Source: Bdellovibrio sp. ZAP7 (GTDB taxonomy: Bacteria; Bdellovibrionota; FAC87; UBA2466). Taken from it: a stretch of 64,000 bases of DNA. The position numbers were made by a program, and so were the translations under genes. A model generated the notes under the pieces. That model saw only the letters and a list, made by a program, of their open reading frames with translations. It had not been told where the DNA came from and searched no databases. Shown here in pieces: positions 35,268 to 37,517 of this stretch. The stretch covers positions 1-64,000 of the forward strand of contig CAMCTJ010000001.1 of NCBI GenBank assembly GCA_945878405.1, in the 5' to 3' direction. Positions within the stretch are counted from its first letter, which is position 1. Each line of letters starts with the position of its first letter.

Positions 35268-35322
35268 AAAGCCCACTACTTCTCCAAAACTTTTTAGTGG
35301 AGAGTAGTGGGCTTTAATTTTT
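35268..35322 (+). terminator. Rho-independent terminator after the secreted-protein gene
   Basis: A long hairpin with arms 35268-35286 and 35298-35315 (18 paired bases, one bulged T) is followed by AATTTTT. It lies about 60 bases after the stop codon at 35206 and six bases before the end of the convergent gene. A smaller CTAGCCCT/AGGGCTAG hairpin at 35214-35236 precedes it without a T-run. Confidence 0.85.
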
Positions 35323-35328
35323 CCAGTA

Positions 35329-35925
35329 TTAAAACTCTTTGCGCCCCAAGGATTTTCTAAGAATTTTTCCGTCGTCAGAACGGATGAGAAGCTGGGTTGG
35401 CACCCCAGGCCGGGCCTTATCCACAGCAGAAGTAGCAAAAGCTAATTCACCTTCTTTCAAACCCTCTCGAACCAATATGACCAGCGAATCTGCGGTAAGA
35501 CCATCAAGCTGATAGCGCCCCGATTGAGATTTCAAATGAGTAGCTTGCTCTTCCAAAACATTTCGATGAATGGGAATCTCGGAAATGGGTCGGTAACTGT
35601 TTTCTTCTTCTATGAGAGCCCCGTCGGAACGTTCTTTTAATCGTATGTTCATTCCTATAATTGGAACGCCATTCTGAGAGAAGGAATAGACAAGAGTTCT
35701 TCCCAAGGGCGAATCGAAGCTTTCTGTTTGGATTTCGTGATACCGCTGTACTCCCCACCACTCGCTAGGAGTGGGCGTTTTCTCCTGGGTCGGTTGAGTT
35801 TCTGGTGATAGAGCGGTCTCTTTTTGGAGCACTGACTCAGAGGGTTTCGAGAAGCTTTCGACTTGCTTCTCCGAAGAGAGAAACCACACCAGAAAAATCG
35901 GGATAATGAGCCAAAATTTTTTCAT
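35329..35925 (-). CDS. Separately encoded FTP/propeptide-like protein
   Basis: 198 aa. A hydrophobic N-terminus (FWLIIPIFLVWFLSS) acts as signal or anchor, followed by a Pro/Thr/Glu-rich linker. Residues about 60-105 (TLVYSFSQNGVPIIGMNIRL, then DGALI) match the pattern of FTP domains, the propeptide part of M4/M36 proteases in which a strand carries 'F.Q..nGvPV.g..i'. The end (PTQLLIRSDDGKIL) resembles the PepSY-like part of the same propeptides. It overlaps the zinc-protease gene by four bases, so it is probably its chaperone or inhibitor acting in trans. This is inference from pattern and position. Confidence 0.6.
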   Translation of the reverse strand: MKKFWLIIPIFLVWFLSSEKQVESFSKPSESVLQKETALSPETQPTQEKTPTPSEWWGVQRYHEIQTESFDSPLGRTLVYSFSQNGVPIIGMNIRLKERSDGALIEEENSYRPISEIPIHRNVLEEQATHLKSQSGRYQLDGLTADSLVILVREGLKEGELAFATSAVDKARPGVPTQLLIRSDDGKILRKSLGRKEF

Positions 35926-37517
35926 AAACCAAGCTCCAACGGTAAGGTTGTTTCTGGCGCGTTCTCAGAACTCACCTTGAGATAAAACCGAGCTCTTGCT
36001 CGCCCTGAAGCTGCGCGCTTATCAAGGGCTAACGAAACAGAGTTTAAAAAATCTTTATATTGGGTTCCTGTAATTCTAATCGAAGCTCCCCCAGCGAGGT
36101 CTCCATAAGCTTGGAAATCAACATAAGGAATTACCGCGGGATCTGATGAAACAATCTGTGCTCTTACGTTTCTCGCAGTACCACTATTGGGATTAGAAAT
36201 TGCGATCGAAAAAAATATCTCGTCTGCTGAGGTATTGGGGGTAACCGAGTAAATCTGATTATTAAATTCTTTGAAGCCAACCGCTGTTGCTTGCAACCTG
36301 AGGGGTTGACCGAGAGGCGTTCCCCGATCGGGAAATCCTCTAGTTAAAAAAACGTTACTAATGAACGAAACATGACTTCCCTGATTGAGGGACTTATCCG
36401 AATCAAGAAGGGCATTCTTAAAATCGACTAGCGAGGCATTCTTTTTGAGCATGCCTACCGCTGCAAATATCGTTCGATCGGAGAGGAAAGCTCCAGTTTC
36501 TTTGTTTTCCTTTTCAAACTGACTTCTGATGTCCCATAAAACTCGAGTACACCATTCTGCAACATCATATTTTTCTGGAACCCCTTGTGAAGTTTGGTAA
36601 GTCGCAACCGAAGAAAATCGGTTCTTAGAGTCGTTTAGGGAGAGGGCTGCTCGTAAGGGATAGTTGGGCTTAATATCCGAAAGATTTCTAGCGGCCCATC
36701 TACCGATATATCCTTTTTGGGAGGCCGTCTCACTTAAGTAGTCAGCTAAACATTCGTGAATAGCTCCGGCTTCCGTAAAAGCAGCCCCTTTTTCACCGGC
36801 ATCGTCAATGCCGCGACTTGCACTGATGCTTTCATTAAAAAGATGACCGAATTCATGCCAATAGACATCGCGATCAGCACCTAGTGGATATTGAACGTCA
36901 CCAAAGAGTTGTATGTATCTTGGCTTTTGAGGTTGCAAAGTATTGTGGACATAATAGGCATTAATTTCTTGGCTTGTTTGGGAAGTGGTAGACTGCTCGG
37001 GATTGGTATTTGATCGCACCATCACATAGAGCTGCCGAGACTGATCAATAGAGAAACCTAAAGCTTTCACATAATCTGAAATCGAACTAACCGCGTGGTA
37101 GGCCATCACCTGGGAATACTTGGGATCTTGAATGTTCGAAGTCGCTGAGGTGAGCTCTTGAGGCTTTACTAAGAGATCCGAACTATCAAATTGGCTGTGA
37201 ACTCGAATTTTTAAAAATGAATTATCTAAAGCCGAGTAAGTTTGCAGGCCCGGCAAGCCGACCGCCACTTGCGCATGTTGGAAAGCGGATGGGGAAAAAT
37301 CAAAGGCTTTCAGTTGCGGGGAATCGATGGGATTGGGAATGACCAAATAAGCCTGTGGCCCTTGAGAAAACCTATCCAGCCTGAAATCTCGGAGTGTTTG
37401 AAGATTCAGGGCTTGAACATTAATCTCGAGACCGCCACTGTGTGAACGGCGCATTCCACAACCTGTAGTGAGAAGACTTACGAGAAACAAAGCTGTATGT
37501 GCTAGATGCAGTTTCAT
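35922..37517 (-). CDS. Lipoprotein zinc metalloprotease (gluzincin type)
   Basis: 531 aa. The lipobox LLTTGC at residues 15-20 anchors the protein to the envelope. The catalytic motif YWHEFGHLFNE is near 220, and GAIHECLADYLSET about 30 residues later supplies a Glu ligand, an arrangement like fungalysin (M36) and thermolysin-type enzymes. The C-terminal 150 residues form a beta-rich domain (SIAISNPNSGTARNVRAQIV). It carries no propeptide, unlike relatives. The next gene, overlapping by four bases, looks like one. AGGAG precedes the ATG by eight bases. Confidence 0.8.
   Translation of the reverse strand: MKLHLAHTALFLVSLLTTGCGMRRSHSGGLEINVQALNLQTLRDFRLDRFSQGPQAYLVIPNPIDSPQLKAFDFSPSAFQHAQVAVGLPGLQTYSALDNSFLKIRVHSQFDSSDLLVKPQELTSATSNIQDPKYSQVMAYHAVSSISDYVKALGFSIDQSRQLYVMVRSNTNPEQSTTSQTSQEINAYYVHNTLQPQKPRYIQLFGDVQYPLGADRDVYWHEFGHLFNESISASRGIDDAGEKGAAFTEAGAIHECLADYLSETASQKGYIGRWAARNLSDIKPNYPLRAALSLNDSKNRFSSVATYQTSQGVPEKYDVAEWCTRVLWDIRSQFEKENKETGAFLSDRTIFAAVGMLKKNASLVDFKNALLDSDKSLNQGSHVSFISNVFLTRGFPDRGTPLGQPLRLQATAVGFKEFNNQIYSVTPNTSADEIFFSIAISNPNSGTARNVRAQIVSSDPAVIPYVDFQAYGDLAGGASIRITGTQYKDFLNSVSLALDKRAASGRARARFYLKVSSENAPETTLPLELGL

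Follow-up and report, generated by a model that had tools for sequence, protein, structure and literature searches.

How an exported metalloprotease of the M36 type manages without an N-terminal propeptide, and whether the small protein encoded by the gene that overlaps it supplies the missing part, is the question raised by a gene pair in the window, by which we mean the whole 64,000-nucleotide stretch of Bdellovibrio sp. ZAP7 DNA that was analysed. The propeptides of M4 and M36 proteases are intramolecular chaperones, and the initial annotation had proposed that here the enzyme and its propeptide are encoded as two separate genes. We consider it likely that one M36-type proprotease is divided between the two overlapping genes of this uncultured bacterium, with an anchored propeptide that would act in trans as both steric chaperone and inhibitor.

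Both open reading frames lie on the minus strand at the coordinates first given for them, and their overlap, an ATGA shared by the stop codon of the protease gene and the start codon of the partner gene, is verified:

35922-37517, minus strand: M36-like protease, a predicted lipoprotein of 531 aa without an N-terminal propeptide (PF02128, Foldseek and hhalign).
35329-35925, minus strand: separately encoded FTP-PepSY propeptide protein of 198 aa (Foldseek; hhalign to fused M36 propeptides).
35922-35925, minus strand: the 4-nt ATGA in which the protease gene stops and the partner gene starts (sequence).
35268-35315, unstranded: perfect inverted repeat of 13 nt, T-rich on its flanks, between convergent genes (sequence).

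A histidyl-tRNA synthetase-like gene is divergent upstream of the pair and a gene for a 238-aa protein is convergent downstream, so that the pair looks like a two-gene unit. The ATGA overlap may couple translation of the partner to that of the protease, and the inverted repeat is a possible terminator, shared by the unit and bidirectional; the terminator scan missed it because its loop is too long, and the promoter and terminator scan gave signal at chance level only.

The enzyme carries the following features:

37458-37460, minus strand: lipobox cysteine Cys20 of LLTTGC, the predicted lipidation site (invariant in 13 orthologues).
37329-37337, minus strand: PNP motif, residues 61-63, the counterpart of VFDPNP at the mature start of fused M36 enzymes (invariant in alignment A2; hhalign).
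36843-36857, minus strand: HEFGH, the catalytic motif that binds zinc, residues 221-225 (sequence; ligands invariant).
36741-36758, minus strand: HECLAD, with the third zinc ligand Glu255 and with Asp259 (both invariant; opposite the GEGxGD region when fused M36 enzymes are aligned).
35925-36320, minus strand: C-terminal all-beta, Ig-like domain, approximately residues 400-531 (AlphaFold2 secondary structure, pLDDT ~82-96).

The earlier description of a lipoprotein protease with a complete gluzincin site holds, since the TTGC lipobox, HEFGH and the glutamate of HECLAD are all in place, and Cys20, H221, E222, H225, E255 and D259 are invariant among the 13 protease orthologues. That description spoke of M4/M36 proteases, and we find the enzyme to be M36-like rather than M4. 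Pfam assigns the protease to M36 (PF02128, E = 4.2e-6, scoring 26.7 bits where the cut-off is 23.3), with residues 215-395 aligned to positions 179-364 of the profile, and the four best Foldseek matches of its model are fungalysins (4k90_A at E = 3.5e-8, then 7qp3, 7z6t and 7qfy, to 4.4e-7), with a probability of 1.00 and a TM-score of ~0.5 on the target for a model that is weak in part. M4 enzymes rank after the fungalysins among the PDB matches, which also include 3nqy_B. The AlphaFold model has a mean pLDDT of 73.6 and is poor over residues 49-130, so details of the N-lobe and the cleft are unsure.

An hhalign comparison of the protease with catalytic domains of fused M36 enzymes from the same phylum (E = 2.1e-13) begins at the mature N-terminus, with PNP opposite the FDPNP of the fused enzymes, and the ~195 residues that precede HExxH correspond in the alignment to the N-lobe of M36 catalytic domains in their mature form. 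Only ~40 residues separate Cys20 from this mature-start motif, and the protease is therefore without a propeptide of its own; the observation that little room is left for one after the lipobox is thus borne out. A propeptide hidden within the protease was also considered, and is ruled out by the same alignment.

The overlapping gene encodes a protein with three recognizable parts:

35866-35925, minus strand: N-terminal hydrophobic segment, approximately residues 1-20, a probable uncleaved membrane anchor (hydropathy; no AxA motif).
35581-35760, minus strand: FTP-like half, approximately residues 56-115, a beta-hairpin region with YSFSQNGVPIIGM (pLDDT mostly >90; alignment A1).
35332-35580, minus strand: PepSY-like half, approximately residues 116-198, with a conserved R-x-E-F tail at its end (model; alignment A1; tail length near that of 3nqy_A).

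Alignment A1, of the 198-aa partner with its 13 orthologues, shows that the conserved core of the family is the segment YSFSQNGVPIIGMNIRL, which had been likened to an FTP domain. Pfam and NCBIfam scans of the lone 198-aa sequence return nothing useful, with no Pfam match to FTP (PF07504) or PepSY (PF03413), and one member of A1 gives a weak Pfam match at E = 0.023; since Pfam is silent on the single sequence, the FTP assignment draws on profiles and structure. By hhalign, the partner matches the propeptides of fused M36 proteases (probability 97.3, E = 2.7e-11). The AlphaFold model of the partner has pLDDT >90 across most of residues 56-195, and Foldseek matches it at probability 1.00 to 3nqz_A (E = 1.9e-6) and 3nqy_A, propeptide chains of vibriolysin MCP-02, and to 4k90_B, the propeptide chain of fungalysin, a strong likeness to the FTP/PepSY fold; the PepSY protein YpmB (2gu3) is also among the best PDB matches. 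In each of the complexes 4k90 and 3nqy, one chain (4k90_A, 3nqy_B) is the match of the protease and the other (4k90_B, 3nqy_A) that of the partner, and the gene pair therefore corresponds to a solved propeptide-enzyme complex.

The N-terminus of the partner had been read as a signal peptide, but an uncleaved membrane anchor is more likely than a cleaved signal peptide. It is strongly hydrophobic and, unlike in most fused enzymes, has no clear signal-peptidase site (AxA) in most partners, which suggests a membrane anchor that is probably left uncleaved, the topology of the partners being judged from hydropathy. At the other end, the autoprocessed MCP-02 propeptide chain 3nqy_A has 8 residues beyond GEVL, and the residues past the last PepSY strand number mostly 8 in the partners of family f8 and 9 in the window protein; the tail thus ends approximately where autocleaved propeptides end, which gives the partner the look of a propeptide that has undergone cleavage. 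Several f1 partners run 1-12 residues beyond the R-x-E-F tail, and an exact product-like terminus therefore does not fit those proteins.

Conservation of the pair was examined at two distances. Both genes are found in 13 of the 14 same-order genomes searched and are adjacent in 13 of 13, so the pair is not due to chance; neither gene was found in G005, which is 73% complete, and in G008 and in G013 a contig end truncates one of the two genes. The overlap is 4 nt (ATGA) in 12 of these 13 relatives and 1 nt in the remaining one. The scan of genome contigs yielded a single relative. Across 369 genomes of the phylum, a profile search with neighbourhoods inspected by eye and with HMMs recovers an M36-like lipoprotein followed by an FTP-PepSY protein in families f8 (8 of the 8 loci read), f25 and f26, with partners of 264-297 aa that have a hydrophobic N-terminus and lie no more than ~21 nt from the protease gene or overlap it (the partner start at locus L089 is assumed). 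Family f24 has the reversed gene order (L096 and L098), with a small DNA-binding gene in between at L097. Pfam detects FTP in 8 of 13 diverged partners (E down to 1.2e-8) and PepSY in 3 of 13 (down to 5.5e-5), and the profile built from the diverged partners, A3, has as its three best PDB sequences 4k90_B, prothermolysin 5a3y and 3nqy_A, and matches A1 at E = 1.4e-11; phmmer with a single f8 partner found nothing relevant. Conservation of the gene pair, which had been named as a check, is therefore found both within the order and, in diverged form, in several other families, and the arrangement, rather than standing alone, is widespread in the phylum.

One-chain FTP-PepSY-M36 enzymes occur in the same phylum, e.g., at L029, L050, L055 and L101, and the flanking open reading frames of the last three contain no FTP or PepSY partner that we could see. 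The absence of a partner beside the fused enzymes in the loci viewed, the retention of ATGA in nearly all relatives and the recurrence of the pairing in other families with either gene first all argue against the notion that the two genes are merely co-transcribed and that the FTP-PepSY protein has another target, which we regard as very improbable. In a tree of the catalytic parts, split and fused forms cluster far better than chance and the split trait needs 2 changes; the protease tree cannot tell one splitting event from several, both being compatible with it.

A further variant is found in family f9, where 11 readable loci have an M36-like lipoprotein of ~800 aa followed by a protein of 168-214 aa, often with a 1-nt overlap. 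The N-terminus of these small proteins is hydrophobic and their C-terminal strand, VDSxTGxxxxTWxR, resembles PepSY; they lack the FTP part and are probably anchored remnants that retain PepSY only. Compared with A3 by hhalign, f9 partners cover 23 columns at a probability of 19%; Pfam gives PepSY in one of them at E = 0.034, and no relevant PDB match was obtained. In every readable locus of the f9 series L105-L116, a gene for a ~1000-aa protein, secreted where its start is readable, precedes the pair on the same strand, which suggests a three-gene unit of this protein, the protease and the small PepSY-like protein.

The anchor and putative PepSY remnant of f9, together with the hydrophobic N-terminus of partners generally, would also suit a partner that is a stabilizer or tether, holding the enzyme at the membrane until it is degraded for release and having no role in folding. 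YpeB is a precedent, as it has PepSY domains and SleB needs it in order to be stably incorporated and to function (PMC6660665); YpeB-SleB and YpmB are cases in which a PepSY protein outside proteases controls or stabilizes an enzyme, as is proposed for the partner. YpeB and YpmB are not, however, FTP-PepSY propeptides of an adjoining metalloprotease and their clients are not M36 enzymes; SleB is a hydrolase of no relation to them, and the partner and protease studied here correspond instead to the propeptide and the enzyme of one fused family. We judge a tether without folding activity to be quite improbable.

A more serious competitor, still unlikely, is that the enzyme needs no help in folding and the partner is a protective inhibitor only, which shields the cell's own proteins. 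M4 operons with a separately encoded inhibitor exist, since in protealysin-emfourin (PMC9505478) and RhpP-RhpC (PMC6490944) a related M4 protease shares an operon with a separate inhibitor or chaperone, and FTP-PepSY propeptides inhibit besides chaperoning. The same genome also encodes a 377-aa M36-like lipoprotein without a propeptide of its own (L034:1291-2424, G000 contig C8); its gene overlaps a gene for a 213-aa barrel-like protein and has no FTP or PepSY neighbour, and a partner may thus be dispensable for some enzymes of this kind. Against this, the propeptides to which our partner is homologous are established chaperones in M4 enzymes (PMC6490944), whereas emfourin and RhpC are small inhibitors not described as propeptide homologues or as FTP-PepSY propeptides, and RhpC is cytoplasmic; an inhibitor alone would moreover leave unexplained why the enzyme has lost its own propeptide. 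Among the listed Pfam and PDB matches of the partner there is no emfourin entry.

Elsewhere in this genome, L031:1297-3147 (G000 contig C6) encodes a 616-aa protease that, on a reading of its sequence, apparently has an FTP/PepSY-like propeptide fused N-terminally, and split and fused designs thus apparently coexist in one genome.

We return to the preferred reading of the pair as a proprotease in two pieces. FTP-PepSY propeptides of M4 and M36 enzymes aid folding and remain bound as inhibitors after autocleavage (PMC6490944), and a corresponding sequence of events can be proposed for the split pair. The enzyme, produced with no propeptide of its own, would be exported and, as its lipobox predicts, carry a lipid at Cys20, and the partner would be synthesized separately, after the enzyme, from the same message. 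Exported to the same compartment, the partner would keep its N-terminus as a membrane anchor and display the FTP-PepSY domain, which would bind the nascent catalytic domain in trans and aid its folding as a steric chaperone; its C-terminal tail would then fill the active-site cleft and inhibit the enzyme until the two proteins part. Release might, speculatively, come about when the lipoprotein is sorted to the outer membrane and the anchor stays in the inner membrane. Extending this to the phylum is tentative and somewhat doubtful: M36 lipoproteases at large might be controlled by anchored trans propeptides, with control ended by sorting to different membranes, and in one family the propeptide might have shrunk to an anchored remnant with PepSY alone, which could serve as a safety catch under regulation.

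Fused M36 and M4 proproteases (fungalysin 4k90, vibriolysin MCP-02 3nqy/3nqz and thermolysin) have the same catalytic and FTP-PepSY folds as the pair, but in them the propeptide forms the N-terminus of a single chain and is removed by cleavage, whereas here it is encoded by a second gene behind that of the enzyme, probably has its own membrane segment, and serves an enzyme that is a predicted lipoprotein. In gene arrangement the pair is comparable to the Aeromonas sobria protease ASP, for which ORF2, encoded behind the protease gene, is an external chaperone and inhibitor in trans; ASP is, however, a kexin/subtilisin-type serine protease, and neither this enzyme nor the fold of ORF2 is related to the proteins here. 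One weak match to A1, at L051, is not an FTP protein but a partner beside a subtilase. That locus encodes a kexin-like subtilase (L051:1018-3296, G129 contig C147; Pfam S8 and P-domain; best PDB match ASP 3hjr, E = 7e-67) and, behind it, a 259-aa anchored protein that weakly matches ORF_2_N and the fervidolysin prodomain, and is probably a second, unrelated case of a protease with a trans-encoded chaperone or propeptide, of the ASP/ORF2 kind.

Lif foldases have been likened to propeptides (PMC3352829) and are membrane-bound (PMC7046727, PMC13381987), and Lif, LipB and LipH resemble the proposed partner as membrane-anchored periplasmic steric chaperones for an exported enzyme; Lif is nevertheless no propeptide homologue, its fold and client are unrelated to the partner and to M36, and no Lif match to the partner is seen in Pfam or among the PDB matches listed. 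None of Lif, ORF2, emfourin, RhpC and YpeB is an FTP-PepSY propeptide encoded in trans to an M36 lipoprotease, and we find no description of one in the literature searched, the coverage of which is incomplete, so that this silence weighs little.

The pair is a natural, conserved case of a propeptide encoded as a second protein that is probably anchored in a membrane, while fused relatives exist elsewhere in the phylum and apparently in this genome too. Such a split allows folding, inhibition and localization to be separated genetically, and offers a natural two-component system for the study of propeptide action in trans. It also predicts a function for many unannotated small proteins that are encoded beside lipoprotein proteases of this phylum.
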